Source: Thozetella sp. PMI_491 (lineage: Eukaryota; Ascomycota; Sordariomycetes; Chaetosphaeriales; Chaetosphaeriaceae). From it: a DNA stretch of 64,000 nt. The notes under the pieces were generated by a model. That model saw nothing but the letters and a program-made list of their open reading frames with translations, searched no databases and was not told the origin of the DNA. The stretch lies in the NCBI GenBank assembly GCA_021432635.1, contig MU270048.1, positions 434,001-498,000 of the forward strand, read 5' to 3'. Position 1 is the first letter of the stretch. The number at the start of each line of letters is the position of its first letter. The position numbers and the translations under genes were made by a program. Below are positions 544 to 45,616 of this stretch, in pieces.

Positions 544-3500
544 GGCTGCTGGTGATGGAGACGAGAACTTTGCGGCTCTGGTGCCTGATACCGAGAGAAA
601 GCAAGCTAATAGCTTCCAAGAAGCATCACAGGGTGTTCAGGCTGGTGTACAACCAGCTTGGCTACTGTTTGGGTGACCGGGTGCGGCCGAGGTTTGAAGA
701 AGTTGGGAGGTATGAGAGGTATGGGAGTTCTCTTGTACTGGTATTAAGACGTACTTGCCAAAGCTTCTTGAACTTTGCTGGACAAAGTGAGGTGTTGGTG
801 GGTTGGTGACTTCCGCATTGGAAAGGCCTACTAGGGGATGGAATGGCTGGGATAAGCAAACAGCAGAATGTTCCGGAGATAAGTCGATGAAGGCATTCGG
901 AACAACGTCTGGTAGAACCAGAAGTGTATGCCAGGTAGCTTTGTGACGTGGGTGGGTGAACGGTCTAAGTTTGTGAGATACCCGAATAAGCTGTCCGCTC
1001 CTATTGTTGCGCGTCCTATTGGCACACCTGCCACTCAAGGGCCAACCAGTCACAGAACTCGAATCACAAACCGCAGCCGACACTTTGCATGCCATTCTCA
1101 GCAGACAGCCTCGCAGCTTCTCGCCCGTGCCTCTTGGGCTCTTTCTTTAACCTCCTCCTCCTGTTTCCTTGTTCTACGAGGCCTAGCTTCCAATCGGATG
1201 GCCCCCCCAAGGTGAACCAAAACAAACTTGCCTCTCTGCCTGCAGAGTACAAGTTGCTGGCACACAAGTGCTGACCGTCTTCTCAGTAGATGCTGTCCAA
1301 CACACCGATACTTCGTGACCGCCTCTTGAGTCGAGGGTTTTCATTGTTTGCTACCGCCTGCAGATGCCATCAAGTGGTCCCCGGCTGGGTAAGGGAAGAA
1401 AAGGGGGAGGCTCTTCAGCCTCCTTTCGCAAGAGGGCAACGAAGTACCGAATAAGGAGAAGCATAAGCCATCTCCAACGGCCCGATCCCTTAGAACGAGT
1501 CACCCTAGCGCTTCTTTGCGCAATGGGTTCACATGGCGGTCTCGGGGTTACCGCCTGTTGGCTCGACACCAACCAGCCACTTGTCTCCTGTTATCGTGGC
1601 TCTCTCCTCGTGGCTGGTACTGACTCGCCTAGTCGGACCGCACTTTTTGGTGTGATTCTCTTCTCGAGCGGTCCCGAGATTCGGTAAGTCGTATAACATC
1701 ACTCTATACTGGCGGTCAGTGTGGTTCACTGCTCGGCCGAGGAGCCGGTGACGGCTCGTGGGCGGCGGAGAGGAAATATCCTTTGTCAAATTCCGACCGC
1801 CTTCGCAACGTGTTTCGTGTTCAGAGGCAACGATACCGGGCTCGCCCCCGATTGGGAGACAAAGTGGCGGTTGTTAGCCCCGAGAGTCCGTCTTTCATCC
1901 TCGCAGACATACAGACGCATTGACGGAGACTGATGCAGGGCCTCGAGAGTCCAGCAGGTGGACTCAGGCATGTAGCACCAATGAGGTGCATTTATCTACA
2001 GCATGTGGGAATTTGTGAGTGTGAATAGGGCTTCGCAAGAGCCACGCCATTCGTCGGGGTCTAGAGCGCCATTATGGTTTGGTGGGCTCGGTCATCCCGT
2101 TCTGGATCGACATTTTAAACTATGCTTTCTCCGACGGAGCAAGGGCTAGAGGAGAAATATCATGCAGCGAAGCTTGGGTTAGATCGCTCCTACCATGTCT
2201 TCTTTTCTCCGGTTGTATTGATATGCCCCCTTTTCTACAAAGCCGCGCCGAGACGGCGGAGCGGCTAAGGGGACGCTAGGAGAGCGGTGATGAATGGGAC
2301 GACTCTGCATCAGGAAATTCCTTGACACGCCTCGAACAGCAATTCATCGAGGCGTGGCCGTGCTTTTGGCCTGTATTTCAATCGTGCCTTGGTCCATATT
2401 TAGTATCTTCACCGTGAGCTTTGTGGCGGACATCGCCAAACAGCGTGGGCGAAGAATCCGAATCACGGAGCAGGAAACTGCCACCCAAGCCCCCAGAACC
2501 TCGAACCTCCACAACACTCATACAATTCACCCCCTGTGTGATTATTAGCTTGGTACAAAACAGAGGCCAGCCAAGTATGAGGGCTTGAAAGCCATGAATC
2601 AGCCTTGTAGGCTTGTTCTCGGTCTTTTGGCTCCTCCCTGGCCCTTTGGCTCCCTGTTGGCCGTGTAAACTCCCCTGTATCTGGATCAAATACTTTGCAT
2701 ATGAAGACAGTGTCCATTTAATTCCACGCGAACAAAGAAACAAACAGGGGTTGTATTGTACTGTAGAGTGTTCTACTTTACCTTGCCCATACTTTATGTG
2801 GAGGCCCACCTACGGACTTCCGGTGATACCCGGAGCAGCTCCATCGATCCCTGTCGAGCAGCTTAGCACCAGGGGCTGCGAGACAGGAGGTTGTGGACAG
2901 CGAGGGACCTAATTGAAGACTCACTGGGCCGACAGGAGAGCCCGTCGGAACCTTTCCTCACCATCCACTGCTGAGAGAAGTACTTAGCTTCTATATCATA
3001 ACTGTGGCTGCACAAATGTTTGGAAGGTCTTGCTGGCAGTCCTCAACCCAGGCTAGGCTCTCGATTTAGACATCGCGTCTTCTGAGTGGCTAGAAGGGAA
3101 ATATAGGCGGTGATTCAATATCAAGGCATGCATTATCGTGCTGGCCGGTGGTGCCATATAAAATGTAGGTAGAATAGGACGGCTCTCCAGGACGATCCCG
3201 GCGCATCAGTGCCAGACGACGTGTGCGCCTGGCGCGAGCATTGAGAGGCCTGATTTGAAGAGGGCGAGAGGGTTCGAGTTCTCTGATGTCGAGGTGCTTT
3301 CCTCCCAGGCTACAAATTCGAATTTCGGCCGTGGCGAACTCTAATCCGGACAAGGCGTCACGATCCAAGCATTGAGCCAGTTCCTGTGCAGCTGACCACG
3401 CTTGGCTTGTTTTTTTGGACGACGTTCCATAGGTTGGATAGGTCCAAGGTGTGACGAAGGAGGGTGGGGAAGCCCGCCAGGCCCCCTGTGTGCCCCGCCA

Positions 3501-27089: not shown

Positions 27090-28340
27090 CAGTTCGTAGG
27101 AGCGACTACGGGTTGCGGTCGCGAAAAGGAATTGGCCCATCTGATTCGACGGCGCGAATCTCTGTCGCAAACTAGGATCCCGTCGCCATTTCCCTCCAGA
27201 GACAGCATCGAGATGCTCTGCGACGATGGCGCCGGGGGTCTTTCTCACTTGGGGGGAAGCCCTCCTCCTGGATGGTGTCGAATATTGTATGTAAGCGGAG
27301 TTAGGACGGACAATCCGCAAGGAATTGGGGCCTATCGCCCTGGGCCCAAAACGGAGATACCCCGAGCTCCGAGGCTATACTCCGTGGTCAGTCTGCAAGC
27401 CCTATCTCGCTCGGTATTGCCAATGGCAGGGCTGGCTGACCAGAAGCCCGCAGCAGGACGAAGGACTGCGCGGGCTGGTGGCTGCCATGCAGATGTCGTA
27501 TTGGCCGCGCGCAGTTGAGCGAAAAGTCAAGGGAGCCGACAGGTGGCATCCACAGGGCACGGAGCCAATTGCAGCCGGTAGGCCTAGCTGCAGGACGGCT
27601 TCGCAAGGCTTTGCGCGTCCCACCCAGCTTTTTTTTTCCCTTCCCCCAGGGCCGAACACGACAAGCTGGCGACGCCGCCCCGTTCTCAATGTCCTTCAGG
27701 TTTAGGCAGGTAAAACAAGGAAGAACGGGAAGGCACTTGCAATGCGCCCTTGGATGCCAAACTGCCCACGACGCCCTTTGACGCGGCGTGTCGCCTGCCT
27801 AACCCCCAGAACGTCATGGAATCTGAGGCCAAACCTAGGGCGCGTTTGCTAGGCCGCGCCTGAGTTTCGAGAAACGGTTATCTTTTGACAACTGGTGAAA
27901 GCTCGGGCTGGCGTTCCGCCCTTCGAATCAAAAGCCTCGCGCTTATTGGTTCGTGACGACCAGGATGGTACTAACCTGGGGCAGTGCTCCACACAAATTA
28001 GGCGGCTTACGGGCCTTGGGAAGGTTCCATGCAGCTGGTCGCAACCTGAACCCGGCGGGTCAGGTACCTCGTCGTCGTGCTTGCTTTGAGCGTCTCTTGC
28101 GCAAAAAGATCGATTGTGTCTTGCGGAAAATTCGAGGAACCGCGAGGCACACGAAAAGATAACATTGTCCAATTTTCTCGCGGATCGACGGTCTGGCGGG
28201 CGGTGCGGCGCTATCCGGGGCGTAGCAGCCAAGTAGAGGAGGAAAGCGACATCTGTCAATGCACCGCAGGGGTGTACCTCCTCGGGCTCTTCGTCCCATG
28301 GACCCGGCCAACTCAAAGAGGAATGGTGGGATTTTGCCTA

Positions 28341-28347
28341 TGACTCA
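28341..28347. promoter_or_regulatory. GCN4/CPC1-type site TGACTCA in cpc1 promoter
   Basis: A perfect TGACTCA, the binding core known for GCN4 and CPC1, lies about 250 bp upstream of uORF1. cpc-1 in Neurospora is known to activate its own transcription through such elements, so autoregulation here is a reasonable inference. Confidence 0.6.
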
Positions 28348-28598
28348 TTCCTAATTGTTGGTACTCCATCCCAACTGGCTGCAGCGTCCGCCGACTGGCT
28401 GTTAGGGCACTAGTGGTCTCACCGAACCCCTGCCTAGGGCGTCCACCGGCGCTTTCTGCGCCTGGCTTTGGGGCCTTGGGTGCCTGAAAAATACATAACG
28501 TGCGCGGCCCCAGAAAATCTCGCCCTTCCTCTCTCTTCCCTCTACCACCCCCAGGCTCCCAAACCCGTACCCAAACAGATATCAAAGCATTATTCAAG

Positions 28599-28607
28599 AT
28601 GCTTTAA
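28599..28607 (+). promoter_or_regulatory. cpc1 uORF1 (Met-Leu-stop)
   Basis: The first ATG of the inferred leader encodes only ATG CTT TAA. Its stop codon lies in the same frame as CPC1 and closes the main frame at its 5' end. By analogy with GCN4 uORF1 and Neurospora cpc-1 uORF1, a two-codon uORF would allow ribosomes to resume scanning and reinitiate downstream. Confidence 0.75.
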
Positions 28608-29300
28608 AGCGCCCCCGACCCCGTGTCGTCCCCAGCTTCAGACTTGCGTTTCGCAACCGTCAAAATTTCTTCCCAACAGACAAACCTTTTCCCCACTCAA
28701 CCCCCCTTCGCTTCAGCTCTTCCTGAAAAGGTCGATCTGAACTTTGGTCACCAGCTACATAGCTTCGGCTCAAGTTCTCTCTCCCCCACCGCCACCATTC
28801 CGGCCCAGGACTTTCCAGTCTTCACCACGGATTCAAATCAGTCAACATGGCTTCCCTCTACTTCCACCAGCCTGCCGGCACAATCCGCGCAACAACAGAA
28901 ACTAAAGCATCTGGATCTGCCCCCCAATCAGCAGGACTTTGTCTTGTTCGATCAACCGATCAAGCCGCGTCAACCTAATCGCTCTGTCTCACAACCTTCG
29001 GCCCACCGAGGTGTAGTCACCCAGCTCCCGCAGCACCAGCATCGTAGCCAGCAGCAGTTTTACCCACCGGGCTCCGTTTCCCCGTCACTGCAGGGCACGC
29101 GTGTTGCAAACATCATCCAGGCCACAGGGCATCCACATTCTCCGGCTTTCACAAATCGGCTTAGCTCTCCTGCGCAGAATCCTCAGTTCTACGCTTCGTC
29201 TGCTCCATCTTCGACCGTTGCTTTGAACCAACAGAACCGCCTCGCTCGCCCGCCTGTTCCGTTGTTCGCCCAAAGCACTGGTAGCATACCGCAAGGCAAG
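28608..29300 (+). other. AUG-less in-frame N-terminal extension of CPC1
   Basis: 693 nt in the CPC1 frame, from directly after the uORF1 stop to the CPC1 ATG, contain no stop codon and no in-frame ATG. The translated extension is Gln/Pro/Ser-rich and protein-like (LSPTATIPAQDFPVF, DLPPNQQDFVLFDQP, RPPVPLFAQSTGSIPQG), not random. Near-cognate codons such as the GTG at 28623 could start it. Published work on N. crassa cpc-1 reports just this: a conserved stop-free extension with initiation at non-AUG codons giving longer CPC1 isoforms. Translation here is inference. Confidence 0.7.
28847..28978 (+). promoter_or_regulatory. cpc1 uORF2 (43 codons)
   Basis: ATG at 28847 in a frame other than CPC1's, running 43 codons (MASLYFHQPAGTIRATTETK...) to TAA at 28976-28978. 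It is the only other ATG between uORF1 and the CPC1 start; none occurs from 28979 to 29300. Position and length match the inhibitory uORF2 of Neurospora cpc-1, which acts like GCN4 uORF4 and is bypassed when eIF2 is phosphorylated. Confidence 0.8.
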
Positions 29301-30071
29301 ATGAACCTTCAAGGTAACCCTTATCTTCTCCCCCTAGAGATTAGCGCCCAGCGCTCACATATGCGCCCGACAGATTTCTCCGACTTGGAGGACTTCACCG
29401 CCTTCGAGGGTGGTGCTTCCACCACGGCGTACTCTTCGCCCGCAATCGCTAGTGTGTTCGACATCAACGGCAGTGCCCCCGGCTCCACCAACATGGGCAC
29501 TGTTTCTCCTCAGGATCTGCTGATCCAGGAGCCGTTCATGTCGGCACCCAACTCCACTGCACTCACGAGCTTGACTTCGCCTTCTATCTATGGCGATACC
29601 TCGCCCGACTTTGGCGATGGCTATGATGTCTCCCCCAGCTTCGGCAGCGGCGACTTTGACGTCCCTAGCAGCGACGTCTGGTATCCGCTCTTCCCTCAGG
29701 AGAATGGCCACGCTCCTCAGGCCCTTAAGCCCGAGCAGTCTCCTGCCGAACAGTCGGACGAGCTCGAGGTCGTCGAGACAACGGCGAGCTCTGGTCACAG
29801 GCGAAAGTCTTCGACCAACTCGCCGCCCTCTGGCCGCCACTCGTCTGTCTCTGGTGTCAACTCTCGCCGTCGGGACAAGCCTCTGCCTCCCATCATCGTC
29901 GAGGACCCCAGTGACGTTGTGGCTATGAAGCGTGCTCGTAACACGCTCGCCGCTCGCAAGTCTCGCGAGCGCAAGGCTCTGAGGTTTGATGAGCTGGAGG
30001 ACAAGATTGCAAAGTTGGAAGCTGAGCGTGATCACTGGAAGAAGATCGCTTTGGGTGGCGGTGGTCAGTAG
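29301..30071 (+). CDS. cpc1: Cross-pathway control protein 1 (GCN4-like bZIP activator)
   Basis: Transcription factor that switches on amino-acid biosynthesis genes under starvation. From the first in-frame ATG (29301, MNLQGNPYLLPLEIS) it has 256 residues; an alternative ATG is at 29361. The N-terminal half is acidic and hydrophobic (RPTDFSDLEDFTAFEGG), with a GCN4-like activation motif WYPLF at 127-131 in an acidic setting. A Ser/Pro linker follows, then the bZIP domain from about residue 210: basic region KRARNTLAARKSRERKALR with the invariant Asn and Arg residues, and a short coiled coil LEDKIAKLEAERDHWKKIAL ending in GGGGQ. The gene is preceded by two uORFs and a long open extension, so control is expected mainly at translation through GCN2 and eIF2 phosphorylation; gcn20 lies 13 kb downstream. 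Confidence 0.93.
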   Translation: MNLQGNPYLLPLEISAQRSHMRPTDFSDLEDFTAFEGGASTTAYSSPAIASVFDINGSAPGSTNMGTVSPQDLLIQEPFMSAPNSTALTSLTSPSIYGDTSPDFGDGYDVSPSFGSGDFDVPSSDVWYPLFPQENGHAPQALKPEQSPAEQSDELEVVETTASSGHRRKSSTNSPPSGRHSSVSGVNSRRRDKPLPPIIVEDPSDVVAMKRARNTLAARKSRERKALRFDELEDKIAKLEAERDHWKKIALGGGGQ

Positions 30072-31357
30072 ACCAGATGCATTCTGCAGTTTTCTATGGA
30101 AGGGTCCAACATCCCTCGACCCTAGGGGGGTCGAGGAGGGGACATAGTGCTGTTTTCTGAATTCTTTCCGTGTCGTTTTCGAGGTTATTTAACTTTAACC
30201 GTGGAGGAAAAGTTGCGCGCGGTCAGCCTGGCTCACCAGCGACGCTCAAGTTCGGACTGTACTTGTGTCTTAGTTTTCGTAGTTTCCTACGACCGGAATC
30301 AATTATTATTCATATCTGAACACCGAACTGGCCCCTCTGATGAAGATCGTTTCCGTGCTTCTAGATTAAGTTCGCTGAGGAGATCTATGCCCTAAGCGGG
30401 GAGTGCCCATCTAACCATTCTTCCCCGCTCCTTGTTCCTGATCTCGCTTCTGTTCCCTGCCCAATCTGCCAAGGGTCAAAGTTTAATTATGTAATGCACC
30501 ATCCCAATCGGTGCCATTTTGGACAACGTTCCATGTGTCTTGAATATCTTGAACCCAGCATACACAGTCACGTCAAGTAACTAGACGTCGCTTGCTGATG
30601 ACAATAAAGCAACCAATACTACTCTGACTGGTGTTAATGTGACAGGCCTTTCTCAAGGCTGCTTGAATTACGTCAAGAACGGCTCAAGTTGGCTACAAAC
30701 ACAGCCTGCATTGAACTCCCACAGGTGTAACGACGGTGCGGTAGACTGTTGCTGGTATTTACGAAAAAGAGGAATACAGTCACTAGCAGCTATCCCACTA
30801 GCTCGCGAAACTCTTCATTTCTCGTATCATGATATCGCACGAGTCAACCAGCATTGATTGCCCAGCTATTTAGAATGTAAGGAGGGCGTGGAGGAGGAAT
30901 AGGTGCGACTGCCATGGTATCACTGCAGAGTCAACGACTATCCACGTGCCCAGGTCTGGAGCATCTGATATGTTGGGCGACGTCCAGTCTTGCATGGTAT
31001 TACATGACGAGAGCATACGCGTTCCGGGAAACTTCATGTGTACTGCCATGACAATAGAAGCTCCTCTCCCCTAGCCAGGAGAGAGCGGGGCCTCTTCTTC
31101 ATTTAGGTCATGATCGTCAAAAGAATATAACACAAAGCAAATCAAATGCCCCTATGCATACACCGTCAATCCGTAATGAGTTTTATCCGCTCTGTAAATG
31201 CCCGGGTTCCCTTCCAGCCCTGGTTTCCTTTCCCACCTGGGCCAGGGAATAGCCATTTCATTAGCCGTAGTTTTTTCTGCATCTATTGTGGCAACAACTA
31301 CCGCCAGCCTATCCAGGCAAAGCGGGGTGTAGAGGGTTGTTTTTATGTGTGATTCCT
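30072..31357. other. Intergenic between convergent genes
   Basis: 3' regions of cpc1 and of the large minus-strand gene. Lower GC than the coding DNA. Apart from the hairpin at 30114-30136 nothing is recognised. Confidence 0.5.
30114..30136 (+). other. Perfect 9-bp hairpin in cpc1 3' UTR
   Basis: CCTCGACCC (30114-30122) and GGGTCGAGG (30128-30136) pair around TAGGG, 42 nt after the cpc1 stop codon. Stem of 9 bp, mostly G-C. Possible RNA structure; function unknown. Confidence 0.6.
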
Positions 31358-34300
31358 TCAACTGACTGTCATCACCTGCATCCGCGGTGAGTCGATCGAC
31401 CTTTTGCTCAGCACAGTATTGTTGCTGTGGCTCTTCGGCACATTCTTAGGGGGGCTCGAGGAGGCAGGATCAGTAAAGACCCGCGTAAAAGCCGGGCTCC
31501 CATCCGACGTGAGGCGGGAGTGGCGTTCTCGGCGAGGGGTTCCGGCGGGGCTGAGGGTGAGAAGCTCAGCGCGGCGGACGACATCCGACAGGCTATCCCG
31601 GAGGTGGCCAGCACGCTTCACCAGCTCCTGGAGGCTGTTGGTGTCGAAGAACAGTTTTGAGTTGGGCGGCTTGGCCGGGGAGACGTTCTTGACGGGCGTG
31701 GCAATCATTCGCTGTTGCTGCATGGCTTCAATCACGGTGGAGATGACCGCCGACTCCCTGTTGGCCCTCCTCGATTGGTCGGGTGTATGGGGACGCGATG
31801 GCCTGGCATGGTCTTCGCCTGTCGGCCAGCCCCCGCCGAAGATGTCATCCTCAGGCGAGAAGACCGACCGCCGGCGGACCACTTGCCGCTCCCGAACAAC
31901 CGTGGTTCTGGACATCTCCGGCTCGGGCACGTCGAAGATATCTTCCGTATGGCCGAGGCTCTGGGCGTCAAACCCTTCGTCGAGGAAGCGTTCGTCAACG
32001 GCCACGCGGTCGAAGCGAGGGGAGCTGTGGACACTATCTTCGTCGTCGGCCGAGTCCTCCTCGTCCGGCGAGGCGAGAGCGATGATGTTCTCCGCATCCT
32101 TCCACTTGATCGCAGCGGGGCCGTTAAGGATGCTCAGTTCCTTCCCGTGCCGGCAGAGGCGCTTCAAATCGTTCACCAGCAGCGACAGCTCCCTGATTTG
32201 GCCGGAATGAGCCTTGACCGTCGGCTGGGTGGCCTGGATCGAAGCTGGGACGACCATGGAGAAGCTCGTGGCGCTATCTTTGCCTCCGATGGGATGAGCG
32301 GGGCCTTCAAAGTCGAAATCATCGTCCCAATCCTCGCTAGCTGTCTTGGTTCCCAGGCCCCAGGTCCCGAATTTCGGTGTTGACTTGGATGTATCTGTCG
32401 GGTCCGGAACGACAGGGACGCTTTGGCTCCGCACGTGGGTGGCACTAGGGCCTTTGCGGTTAACAGAGCGTCCACCTCTCAAGTCCAACTCCTGCTTGCC
32501 GTGGACCGTCTTCGGTCGCGGGGAATGGCCGTCGCCCTCTGCCTTTTCGTAGCTCATCGGCTCGCACCAGTCGAAAATGTTGCTTCGCGGACGCTCACTC
32601 ATGGTGTCCCGGTCCAGAGTGCTGTTACCACTGATACTGGCCAGTGCATGACGGAGGGTCGGGCTGACGCCACGCGAGTTCAGAGAGCTCGACGGCGGTG
32701 ATAGATGGTTGCTGAGGGCGTTCTCGTCCTCTCGTGCCCAGTCGTCATCATCCTCCTCATCCATCGACGGCCTGCTGAAGTCCTCCTTGTCGATTGGCAA
32801 CGGCTCCAGGGACGAATCGTCCGAGTCGTATGCAGCATCGACATCGTCGCTCGGCACAAATTCGACCGGGTCACCTAGGTGAGTCGACCGGATGGGTGTC
32901 GAGATGCCCTCATCTTCCTCCATGATCCTGTTCTTGCCGTCCAGAGCGGGGCCGAGAATCTCCTGGATCGACCATCGCTTCGGCTTGCTATTACCGGCAG
33001 TGCTTGGCGGAGACTCGTCGAACATAGACTCCAGAGGAGTCTCCACAGTCCTCACGCGGCTGGACGACGCCACCGTGCGAAACGAGTCGAACATAGTCTC
33101 GCTCTTGAAGTCAGTATCGTCGTCATCTCCAGAGAGGCCATCGCGGGCGTCGATGTCAGAGCTCGCAATGGTCGAGGCACGGTCGGCGGAGACGGCCCGG
33201 CTCTGGGCCAGGCTAGCATAGCCGCCATGTGAGGCAGGCATGGATGTTGGCGGGTTCTGAGCTTGTCTCGGGTGTGCGGTCGACGAGGAGCTAGAGAGTC
33301 CGAGACGTGCCATGTCAATATTGAAGCTTGACAGACGCGAGAGTGGTGGGAGTGGGGACGAAGAATTTCGTTTGCGGGCTTCGGCTTGGTTGTGCGTTTT
33401 CGCCAGAGGCTCTACCTCCATCTCTCGCCTCGGCTCGGGCGGGTTGAAAATTTCGTGGACGGCAGGTTTAACTTCGGGTTGACGCGGTTTCTCTGAGGTA
33501 ACTGCTGGAGCCGATACATGGCGCCTGCCTCCACTCTTCGCTTCGGTAGACCCTCGCTTGGAGCGCCGGAGGCTTCCAGTCTTCGAGATCCAGCCGGGCG
33601 GTGAAGTAAAATGCTGCGAAATGGACCTCCTTGCTCGTTTCGAGGGGGTGGAGTCCGCGGAGGGGACGGCATTTTGAGACTCCTCTGGCGGAGCAGCGTG
33701 GCCAACCTCGTGGCCAACCTGACCATCAGTAGCACTTTGTGACGGGCCCCGCCTACCTGCTATCAGACTTGGTTTGGTCAAAAATGCAGCAACCCTGCTG
33801 CCCGGCTGGAGAGAGAGTCTCTTGTTGGGCATTGTCTGGCTGTTGGGGCTGCCCTCGCTGGAGCGGCCCGAGGATCGACGGCTTGAAGATTGAGACGCCC
33901 GCGAATGGAAGTACGACGTCCAGCTGCCAGAAGATATTGACCTTCTTGTTGCGGGTTCTGGGGCGAGGGTGGGGACAGGGGCAGCTGAGCAGCCTCTTGG
34001 CCGGGTTTGCTGATCCAGCGAATATTTGGGTGCCGAAGGAGGGGAAGGCCCCGTGAATCCGCCTTGGGATTGGAACTGCTGCACAGTGGCAGACCGCTGG
34101 TGGCTGGTAGCTGGTCTGCGGAGAGTAGGCATCCGCGACTTGGACATTCGCCTCCTCAGAGTCCCGGACTGTTCCTTGTCGCTGCTTTCTGCAGCGTTGT
34201 CCCTCTTCACCAGCACATTTGGTGCCAATTGGTGAGCGGTGGGTGAGGCGGGGGATAATATCGGTGCTCCAGAATTAGGGGAAAAGGAGAAAGATACCGG

Positions 34301-35088
34301 CTCGATGATGAGGCTAGACCTGGGGCTGCCGTGTTGGGAGAGGGGTCGTATTGATAATCGTTTTATCCACGAGTCTCGCGAGGATATCGAGTCCCGACCG
34401 TTCTCGGCGATGGTTCGTGACGTGACGTCTCTTTGCGAGAATAGGGATTGTCTCCGACCCGTGGATTTTGGAGGAGTAGTCTGGGTGTGTGTAGTTCGCG
34501 GAGGACGCGACGAGTTGGTCGGGTGGGACGCGAGCGGGTTCGGGAGGCCGTCGCTAAGTCGCATGGAGCCGTACGCGAAGTCGTCGATGGGGGAAGCACC
34601 GGCACCAGCGCCGGTAGCGCTCGTACTTGGCCTGGACAATGCTGGCGGTAACCGTAGTGTGTCGTAGTCGGCCGCTGCCTTCCTCCTGCTCGACCCCGGC
34701 CGGGCAAGCTCGACCGCGTCCGGGTCGGAGGGTTGGCTAAAGACGAGACCAGCAGCGGCGGCCGCGACCGCAGTGCCAGTTCCGACAAGCTGGAGGCGAC
34801 AAAATCAGTTAATTGAACCGGAACGCTCGGAACCGACGGGCAGGGAGCGAGAAAAAAGCATCGGGCATCGCATCAGGCAAACTGGGGAAAGGGCAGTTGG
34901 AATTGCTGTGTTTGTTGTTGGTGTGTGATGGTGGAAGTGCTAGTGGGGAGCGTCTTTGGGAGCGTGGACGGCTTCGTCTTTGGTGTTTCCTTCCTCCTCT
35001 TTCTCGGTTCTTGCCTCGATTCTCGCTGGACTCGCGCTGCGGTGGATGGGATTGTCATTGTCAGACTTACACTCGGCACAGCTTGCAT
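31358..35088 (-). CDS. Large Ser/Pro-rich disordered protein, possible cell-cycle or septation scaffold
   Basis: A 3.4-kb frame on the minus strand has no ATG near its 5' end until an 18-nt first exon is added: exon 1 35088-35071 (ATG CAA GCT GTG CCG AGT, donor GTAAGT) and exon 2 34789-31358 after acceptor CTCCAG; 1,149 residues, intron 281 nt. The join reads MQAVPSLVGTGTAVAAAAAG. Most of the chain is Ser/Arg/Pro-rich with basic patches (RDSWIKRLSIRPLSQHGSPR). Acidic-aromatic motifs occur at SNIFDWCEP and SEDWDDDFDFEGP. Towards the C-terminus a Leu-rich helical part (IRELSLLVNDLKRLCRHGKE) is probably the conserved core, followed by NSLQELVKRAGHLRDSLSDV. DWDDDF-type motifs and architecture recall proteins of the septation initiation/mitotic exit network (Byr4/Bfa1, Cdc11/Nud1), but I cannot confirm the family. 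The tiny first exon is the weakest part of the model. Confidence 0.75.
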
Positions 35089-42300: not shown

Positions 42301-43241
42301 TGTCTTCCCCCCCCGGGTCCCCTTGCTTAGCCCAGCTAGGACGAGCTATCGAGAGCCAGATCTCCGAATCGTCAGTGGTGTCGCGGCCAACCTTGCTAAC
42401 CCACCGAGCGTGTCCGAGACCCATAAACCCTACCATGCATTTGATGTCTCGTCAGCAAGCCACGGTCGATCACTGTCGTATTGGTTTCAAGGCCCGTTCG
42501 ATGGTTGTTTTTTTTTTCTTCTTATTTTTTTCGCCGGTCCCCGGTATTTCCACAGCCTCTGTGGCACCTCACGTTCCGCTTGCCCGAGAGCTCGGCTAAG
42601 CTCCGAGGAACCGGCCTGAGCTTCAGCGCCGCAGGAGACGCGAAAAGGAGTGGTTGTACGGAATGCGGTCATGTAGAGTCGGATGGGAAGCGCCCAGGCC
42701 CAGCATGGTTTCTATCCGCTGAAGCTATGGTATTGCACAAAACTTGGGGGGCTGCTTGGCATAGCCGGCATTTAACGCAGGTACTTCGGTAGAATCAGCA
42801 AGCACCTTACGTTTTTAGGATCAGTACCGATTTGGTCGTCCGCAATAAACATAGTACGGAAAAGTGGGGGTTTTCGAGAGTTCGCTTGTCAGCCAATGAG
42901 AGGCTGCTCAAGAACCCGGGGTAAACTGGCTGCTGACCAACAGCGGGTCCCGGCGACAACCCACACAAAGTCGATGGTTCGAGACAAAAATTACGGCCCC
43001 AAAGAGGGACGTATCGCTGCCGTCCCTCACCGACAAGCTGCATCAGCTCAATTTGACCACTGCTTTGTGGCGTTGCGAGTGGGACAGTAAGAGGAAATCA
43101 CTCGTTTCATTTTGGAAGTATTGCCAGAGCACCGAGTGATATCCTAGGATCCTCCTTTTTTTTCCCTAGCCCAGTTGCGGTCTCTGTTCCCCTCCCGGAC
43201 CACCCCTCCCTCCCCGGCAAATCCCGCCACCCGCCGCCGCC
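39301..43241. other. Large intergenic stretch, no supportable gene
   Basis: 3.9 kb between the MITE and gcn20. Open frames up to 210 codons (41031-41663, minus) are Arg/Pro/Ser-rich and lack family resemblance; they overlap others on the opposite strand. Contains G11-like and T9-like runs, an 11-bp inverted repeat at 42243-42285, and two copies of a GATTGG-containing motif with CACGCGAC near 42173 and 42229. The right end, from about 43150, is the C/T-rich gcn20 leader. Confidence 0.45.
42243..42285. repeat. Perfect 11-bp inverted repeat
   Basis: GACGCGATCTA (42243-42253) and TAGATCGCGTC (42275-42285) flank a 21-nt GC-rich spacer, about 960 bp upstream of gcn20. Could form a hairpin or be a dyad binding site; no function known. 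Confidence 0.5.
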
Positions 43242-45616
43242 ATGGATGCCGAGATTCGGTCGGTGCTCCCGAACCTTGATCCCGTGATCTCGGAGTACTC
43301 AGTCGGCTATCTAACCCACGCCTCGACCACATGGTCCGACGAGGAAGACCCATCCGGGCCCTCCCCGCTGGCCGAGGCTGCCTCCGCCATCACGGAGCTG
43401 CTAGTCTCAGCCTCGGGGGACCCCAACCAGGCCCTCCAGGACAAGATCCGTCTCTTGGTCGACAAGTGGGTGGAGAAATACAACGAAGCCAACGCCGACA
43501 ATGAGAGCCGCCGCGGCCCAGTGGTCAAGCGGCTGGACCAGACCATCCAGGTCAGCTCCCAGAGGAATATGTCGTCGACCCTGGCCGTTGCCACCGGCGG
43601 CGTAGACCTCGAGTCGGCCAACGTCCGTAAGGTAGAGTCCAAGGTCGACAAGAAGAAGCTAGAGAAAGCCGAGCGGAAGATTGCAGCAAAGCAGAACAAG
43701 AAGACCTTCAAGACGGTCGAGTACGAGGCCTCTCGCCTTATCAACCAGCCCGAGTCGACCCAGTCGTACGAGGAGTTCTACATGGCCGTCAACCCCTTGC
43801 AGTTGGGCGCTGCCAGTGGCAAGTCCAAGGACATCAAGATCGACAGCATCGATGTGTCCATCGGTGGCAACAGGATCCTGACCGACACCACCTTGACGCT
43901 CTCCTACGGCCACCGCTATGGTCTGGTCGGTAACAACGGTATCGGTAAATCCACGCTACTCCGCGCCCTCTCCCGCAGAGAGGTCCAGATCCCCACGCAT
44001 ATCTCCATCCTTCACGTAGAGCAGGAGGTAAGCGCGACCCATCTCAACTACTATTGCTGTGTACAAGGACTGACGAGCCTCAGCTTACCGGCGACGACAC
44101 CCCAGCGTTGCAAGCTGTGCTAGATGCCGACGTCTGGCGGAAGGTTCTACTCAAGGAACAACAAGTAAGGCTACGCTTGAAGCACAGAATATGGCATCTT
44201 TCTTGTTTTCGCTAGCTAACCCTGCCCCAGGAAATTACACAGATTCTGGCCGAGATCGAGGAGCAGAGGGCATCCATGGCAGATACTTCGACCGACGCAG
44301 CCAAGCTGGACAAGGATCGAGAGGCACAGGACCAGAGGCTGGGCGACATCCAATCCAAGCTTGCCGAAATGGAGTCCGACAAGGCTGAATCGAGGGCTGC
44401 CAGTATTCTTGCCGGTCTCGGCTTCTCAACCGAGCGACAGCAGTTTGCTACCAAGACCTTCTCTGGTGGTTGGCGCATGCGTCTCGCACTCGCCCGAGCC
44501 CTCTTCTGCGAACCAGATCTCCTACTTCTCGACGAACCTTCCAACATGTTGGACGTTCCTTCTATCACTTTCCTCTCCAACTACCTCCAGGGCTACCCAA
44601 GCACCGTACTGGTCGTCTCCCACGACCGTGCGTTCTTGAACGAGGTCGCCACCGACATCATCCACCAGCACTCCCAGCGGCTCGATTACTACCGAGGAGC
44701 CAACTTCGATTCCTTCTACGCCACGAAGGAAGAGCGGAAGAAGACGGCGAAGCGCGAGTACGAGAACCAAATGGCCCAGCGGGCCCATCTCCAGGCCTTC
44801 ATCGACAAGTTCCGCTACAACGCCGCCAAGTCTTCGGAAGCACAGTCTCGCATCAAGAAGCTCGAGCGCATGCCGGTCCTCGAACCTCCAGAGACTGAGT
44901 ACAGCGTACACTTCAAGTTTCCTGATGTCGAGAAGCTGTCCCCGCCTATCATTCAGATGTCTGGCGTGACGTTCGGCTACTCGAAAGACAACATCCTCCT
45001 CAAGAATGTCGACCTCGACGTCCAGCTTGATTCGCGAATTGGCATCGTCGGGCCTAACGGTGCGGGTAAAACGACGGTCCTTAAGCTGCTCATCGGCAAG
45101 CTCGCTCCTTCGGCGGGTCTTATCTCCCAGCACCCTCGCCTCCGCGTTGGCTTCTTCGCACAGCACCATGTCGACGCCCTGGACCTGACCACGAGCGCGG
45201 TGAGTTTCATGGCCAAGAACTATCCGGGAAAGACGGATGAAGAGTACCGCCGCCAGCTCGGTGCTTTCGGCATCACGGGCACCACAGGTCTGCAGAGGAT
45301 GGAGCTGCTCTCCGGAGGTCAAAAATCGCGTGTAGCGTTCGCCTGTCTGGCGTTGACCAACCCGCACATTCTCGTGCTAGACGAGCCTTCCAACCACCTG
45401 GATATTGAGGCTATGGATGCGTTGTCGGAGGCCTTGCAGAGCTTCCAGGGCGGTGTGCTGATGGTCTCCCACGATGTCACAATGCTGCAGACAGTGTGTA
45501 CCTCTCTGTGGGTGTGCGACGGAGGCACCGTCGAGAAGTTCAACGGCGACGTCCAAGCTTACAAGAGGCGTATTACGGCACAAGCAGATGCCGCAGGTGT
45601 TGTGAAAGCCCATTAA
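43242..45616 (+). CDS. gcn20: GCN20-type ABC-F ATPase (ABCF3)
   Basis: GCN20 binds GCN1 on ribosomes and helps activate the eIF2alpha kinase GCN2 during amino acid starvation. Three exons: 43242-44027, 44084-44164 (81 nt), 44231-45616; 750 residues, matching yeast GCN20 in length. No transmembrane segments. The N-terminal 200 residues carry the GCN1-binding region and a Lys-rich linker (KKKLEKAERKIAAKQNKK). ABC1: Walker A GNNGIGKST (230-238), signature FSGGW (366-370), Walker B LLLLDEPSNMLD. The ABC-F linker (KREYENQMAQRAHLQAFIDK) leads to ABC2: Walker A GPNGAGKTT (563-571), signature LSGGQ (649-653), Walker B ILVLDEPSNHLD. All splice sites are canonical and in phase 0. It acts upstream of CPC1, encoded 13 kb to the left. 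Confidence 0.95.

Follow-up and report, generated by a model that had tools for sequence, protein, structure and literature searches.

The cpc-1 gene of the filamentous ascomycete Neurospora crassa is controlled through a leader with two AUG-started upstream open reading frames (uORFs), and longer forms of its product, CPC1, are initiated at non-AUG codons, as a first-pass annotation of the DNA treated here had rightly stated (PMC5487733). This near-cognate-extended layout has been in print since 2017, when Ivanov et al. found it in all 100 Pezizomycotina leaders that they analysed, with a uORF1 of 3-6 codons, a uORF2 of 35-70 codons always in the -1 frame, and a CPC1 frame that stays open, the closest upstream in-frame stop lying 101 nucleotides (nt) from the uORF2 AUG (PMC5487733; commentary in PMC5676045). 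Here we describe the corresponding locus in Thozetella sp. PMI_491, in a window of 64,000 nt (contig MU270048.1, positions 434,001 to 498,000; positions below are those of the window). The first-pass observation is correct and well formed, but the locus is an ordinary example of the published arrangement; what is added are candidate counterparts of three deeply conserved near-cognate starts, in the same order.

In N. crassa extracts, the near-cognate codons designated NCC5 to NCC8 initiate translation, and mutating NCC5, 6, 7 or 8 singly leads to loss of specific products, while translation of the main open reading frame (ORF) falls without uORF1 and rises about 2.9-fold without uORF2 (PMC5487733). 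Footprints over uORF2 follow its own frame, and those in the stretch from uORF2 to the main ORF follow that of CPC1; the footprint ratio of this stretch to the main ORF is about 0.2 (0.19 and 0.21) and steady on starvation (PMC5487733). NCC8 is an ACG in 98 of the 100 species, always preceded by A at -3 and followed by G at +4 when present; NCC7 is present in 74 species, as AUU save for 10 with AUC or AUA, and NCC6 in 77, as CUG save for four with UUG (PMC5487733). From NCC8 to the main AUG, the ratio of nonsynonymous to synonymous substitution rates (dN/dS) in the Pezizomycotina alignment is 0.348, and a conserved 5-codon patch is reported in the region overlapping uORF2 (PMC5487733). Furthermore, a Neurospora upf mutant has elevated levels of cpc-1 mRNA (PMC10578600), which fits uORF-triggered decay.

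Leader anatomy and identity of the gene

The features of the locus are collected in Table 1. The first-pass annotation had described a uORF1 reading ATG-CTT-TAA with its stop in the CPC1 frame, a single further ATG in the leader opening a 43-codon uORF2 in another frame, and a CPC1 frame open and free of ATG for 231 codons up to the CPC1 ATG, and each of these descriptions is borne out to the base. The uORF1 TAA occupies 28605-28607 and is the nearest in-frame stop to the uORF2 ATG, 239 nt upstream of it, with none from there to the main ATG; within 28599-29300, ATGs occur at 28599 and 28847 only. Counted with their stops, uORF1 (3 codons) and uORF2 (44 codons) lie inside the published size ranges, and the uORF2 ATG, read against the CPC1 ATG at 29301, falls in frame -1, the one published for Pezizomycotina. 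The extension joins directly to the 256-codon CPC1 ORF and, at 231 codons against a shortest published extension of 160, is within the published layout. Of its 231 residues 34 are Ser, 31 Pro, 29 Gln and one Glu, so that the Pro/Gln richness noted earlier holds, Ser being the commonest residue. No match up to E 1 was found with Pfam in the extension or in uORF2.

Two more ATGs, at 28323 and 28340, lie 5′ of uORF1 and open ORFs of 6 and 4 codons; we take them as probably belonging to the promoter rather than the leader. A TGACTCA element is also found here (Table 1). The window has three occurrences of the general motif TGASTCA where shuffled sequence would have 7.7; there is no enrichment, so it is by position alone that this element suggests a possible site of autoregulation.

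Domain and structure matches place the gene among bZIP genes of the GCN4/CPC1 type, very probably as the cpc-1 (GCN4 orthologue) of a filamentous ascomycete. The best solved-structure match of the main ORF is yeast GCN4 (2dgc, E 2.8e-07), and among Pfam families bZIP_2 passes (23.6 bits, cut-off 22.3) and bZIP_1 falls short (25.4 bits, cut-off 27.6). A search of the assembly (72.3 Mb, 157 contigs) found one copy of the main ORF, the other match at E ≤0.01 being a single 38%-identical stretch (E 0.0019); the extension matched itself only.

Candidate near-cognate start codons

No start codons had been named for the extension in the first-pass annotation. The likely ones, from codon and context, are CTG 28737, ATT 28797 and ACG 28827, the last of them 20 nt 5′ of the uORF2 ATG. 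Their order is identical to that of the published NCC6, NCC7 and NCC8, a correspondence that consists of order, codon and context and is not an alignment with the N. crassa leader. The predicted N-terminal additions are 188, 168 and 158 residues, as against a typical extension of about 180 residues (PMC5487733). An ordered trio with context (published codon variants allowed, purine at -3, full context for the ACG) appeared in five of 2000 shuffles of 28608-28850, and the ACG with its full context alone in 55 of 2000. From uORF1 to uORF2, the CPC1 frame has further near-cognate codons starting at 28623, 28644, 28665 and 28728, of which the third is a candidate for NCC5 (Table 1).

Table 1. Features of the cpc-1 locus of Thozetella sp. 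PMI_491, in order along the window.
Feature	Position	Strand	Remarks
TGACTCA, GCRE/CPRE-type element, possible autoregulation site	28341..28347	+	5′ of leader; position only
uORF1	28599..28607	+	ATG CTT TAA; A at -3; same frame as CPC1; stop bounds the extension
231-codon extension of the CPC1 frame	28608..29300	+	693 nt; without stop, without ATG
ATT, candidate counterpart of N. crassa NCC5	28665..28667	+	A at -3; order and codon only
CTG, candidate counterpart of NCC6	28737..28739	+	GTCGAT-CTG-A; G at -3; would give CPC1 of 444 residues
ATT, candidate counterpart of NCC7	28797..28799	+	GCCACC-ATT-C; A at -3; would give CPC1 of 424 residues
ACG, candidate counterpart of NCC8	28827..28829	+	TTCACC-ACG-G; A at -3, G at +4; would give CPC1 of 414 residues
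uORF2	28847..28978	+	43 codons and stop; GTCAAC-ATG-G; frame -1 against CPC1; overlaps the extension
CPC1 main ORF	29301..30071	+	256 residues; C-terminal bZIP domain; one copy found in genome

Openness and codon usage of the extension

Among 58 ORFs, the extension is the longest AUG-free open upstream extension, the next being of 159 codons. These ORFs come from a mechanical list of ATG-started ORFs of at least 200 codons on both strands of the window and of 20 other 10-kb stretches (264 kb in all), from which ORFs whose upstream stop lay outside the stretch were excluded. Of 1000 dinucleotide shuffles of the extension, 110 had no more than one ATG across all frames, the number seen in the real sequence. 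Taken by itself, the openness of the frame is only moderately improbable; the convincing part is the match to the published cpc-1 layout.

Codon usage was scored with a model built from 42 long ORFs, picked mechanically (57,429 nt), of the window and the 20 stretches, which were not curated and in which introns were ignored; ORFs overlapping 28000-30600 were removed ahead of training. In a control, the true frame was the best of six in 57 of 64 windows of the training ORFs. Across the extension, codon usage weakly prefers the CPC1 frame over the other five, with a score of 0.019 against -0.132 to -0.191, and a z score of 2.28 relative to 2000 dinucleotide shuffles. The CPC1 frame is also the best of six in four of five segments of the extension, the exception being a 21-nt piece (28827-28847).

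A stretch of the extension that overlaps uORF2 (28911-28961) reads LDLPPNQQDFVLFDQPI, a hydrophobic, acidic patch that could be a putative activation motif.

Comparison with described leaders

The first-pass annotation had stated that the locus preserves the Neurospora arrangement, and when uORF sizes, uORF2 frame, absence of an in-frame stop and the three near-cognate codons with their contexts are scored, it does. In common with N. crassa cpc-1, there is a pair of AUG uORFs of matching size classes with uORF2 in the -1 frame, an AUG-free open CPC1 frame of about 700 nt, a GCRE-type element upstream, and near-cognate CUG, AUU and ACG codons 5′ of uORF2, which here are candidates (PMC5487733). 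The two differ at uORF1. In N. crassa it lies in frame 2, and no stop interrupts the CPC1 frame back to the mapped 5′ end of the RNA (PMC5487733), whereas the uORF1 of Thozetella shares the frame of CPC1 and the extension ends there; its TAA bounds the extension, so that near-cognate codons 5′ of uORF1 cannot feed it. The cpcA leaders of Leptosphaeria maculans and Aspergillus likewise have two uORFs of which uORF2 is the longer, and that of L. maculans has a TGACTCA element, as here (PMC3199737). Its uORFs are at -541 and -344, against -702 and -454 in Thozetella, and its uORF1 peptide is MAAI, against ML (PMC3199737). Saccharomyces cerevisiae GCN4 encodes a homologous bZIP factor and presumably shares uORF1-type and uORF4-type control but, as described in PMC5487733, has four uORFs and a main frame without an N-terminal extension, unlike the locus considered here.

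Proposed mechanism and alternatives

With the anatomy of the leader, the bZIP identity, the one copy found, the start-codon trio and the weak codon bias observed at this locus, it is very probably a Pezizomycotina-type cpc-1 leader, in which uORF control is combined with near-cognate-started, extended CPC1 that escapes uORF2; the steps of translation and regulation that follow are all carried over from N. crassa. uORF1 would permit ribosomes to reinitiate. With sufficient amino acids, reinitiation at uORF2 would block the main ATG, and on starvation, with GCN2/eIF2alpha phosphorylation, ribosomes would bypass uORF2 and initiate at 29301. In parallel, part of the ribosomes may initiate at near-cognate codons, most likely ACG 28827, ATT 28797 and CTG 28737, and would then read through the uORF2 region in another frame, yielding CPC1 forms with 158, 168 or 188 additional residues that would evade uORF2 repression. 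The decoding of uORF2 and of the extension from overlapping frames, which the first-pass annotation had proposed, has support in N. crassa (PMC5487733) and, by analogy, would hold here, as would the production of longer CPC1.

Several results weigh against this assignment. The trio test was designed after both the sequence and the published paper were known. Of 2000 dinucleotide shuffles of the extension, 69 keep frame 0 open. In codon score the extension is far under the main ORF (0.222) and the mean of the control coding windows (0.186), of which only 7 of 64 score lower; the maximum among the 2000 shuffles was 0.081, so at least one shuffle surpassed the observed value, and the segment from uORF2 to the main ATG scores -0.039, though still the best of six. 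In N. crassa, moreover, the output of upstream starts in in-vivo reporters is <1% of that of the main ATG, and toeprinting did not detect the near-cognate starts (PMC5487733); both weigh against a large physiological role of extended CPC1. Some of this is also what speaks for the alternative that the gene has GCN4-type uORF control only, the open frame being a by-product of a C-rich, stop-poor leader that yields no meaningful extended CPC1: a frame both open and ATG-free arises in 22 of 2000 dinucleotide shuffles, and the weak codon score and the low reporter output are on the same side. Against it stands the start-codon trio found in the leader, and we consider this alternative unlikely.

Extended CPC1 could also arise if ribosomes shifted by +1 (or -2) within uORF2 instead of starting at near-cognate codons, a reading that the -1 frame of uORF2, shared with the published Pezizomycotina leaders, would allow and that the authors of that study leave open (PMC5487733). 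Yet the single mutations of NCC5 to NCC8 in N. crassa extracts abolish specific products, and in uORF2 we recognised by eye no shift site of the Ty1-, Ty3- or antizyme-like kinds, no search with a dedicated tool having been made; a frameshift seems very improbable. Least probable, or nearly so, is readthrough of the uORF1 TAA, which would give an AUG-initiated CPC1 with the entire 231-codon extension and, if true, a route to extended CPC1 that is unavailable in the N. crassa layout. What commends it is that uORF1 and CPC1 share one frame here with a single TAA between them, uORF1 of N. crassa being in another frame (PMC5487733). The codon score just 3′ of uORF1 (28608-28736; 0.028), no lower than that of the whole extension, is neutral on this point. 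The RNA from uORF1 onward (28599-28720) is not unusually structured, with a folding z score of -1.52 and 16 of 200 shuffles folding at least as well, and TAA followed by A is not known to be a readthrough context, both of which count against it. More broadly, five leader stretches and one stretch of the 3′ untranslated region (UTR) gave z scores of -0.06 to -1.52, none beyond chance.

With near-cognate initiation as the favoured source of extended CPC1, the locus extends the published cpc-1 layout, with a candidate start trio, to a further filamentous fungus and speaks for annotating alternative longer CPC1 N termini in Thozetella sp. PMI_491; it brings no new principle.

Relatives and neighbouring features

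Relatives were sought with the 487-residue frame (extension plus CPC1) as query. In the genome contig collection, 66 stretches fitted a pattern and none encodes a relative. A further scan, in which eight stretches fitted a pattern, yielded two loci from viral contigs, L025 and L026, both matching residues 449-481 only (56% identity). The L025 match falls within another ORF (2845-3402), one with an HNH-like end, and was put down to chance similarity of a charged, helical segment; in L026, coordinates and identity of the match are equal to those in L025. The collections scanned thus yielded no fungal relative.

On the minus strand, a 277-codon open frame (29355-30188) runs antisense to the CPC1 main ORF. 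All three minus-strand frames over the main ORF have negative codon scores, so this frame is probably a shadow of codon bias. The cpc1 3′ UTR contains a 10-bp hairpin with a 3-nt loop (30114-30136), 42 nt past the stop codon. Folded together with its surroundings (111 nt in all), it has a z score of -1.20, with 27 of 200 shuffles folding at least as well. In the window, Rfam gave no match at gathering score and no tRNA was found. A search with the 5.8S rRNA family likewise had no match among the 39 candidates scored out of 1754 that passed its first stage.

The neighbouring long ORF, on the minus strand at 31361-34804, has a septation protein Etd1 domain (E 2.1e-11). An ABC-F type ATPase is encoded on the plus strand at 43170-45613 in two open stretches, with ABC_tran in both and ABC_tran_Xtn in the second, whose nearest structure is ABCF1 (5zxd); GCN20, of the amino-acid-starvation pathway, is an ABC-F protein. 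The window also holds an ORF for the 51-kDa subunit of complex I, whose best matches, 7zm7 (732 bits) ahead of 6gcs (627 bits), would be consistent with a Pezizomycotina host, the two being complexes I of Chaetomium and Yarrowia, respectively.
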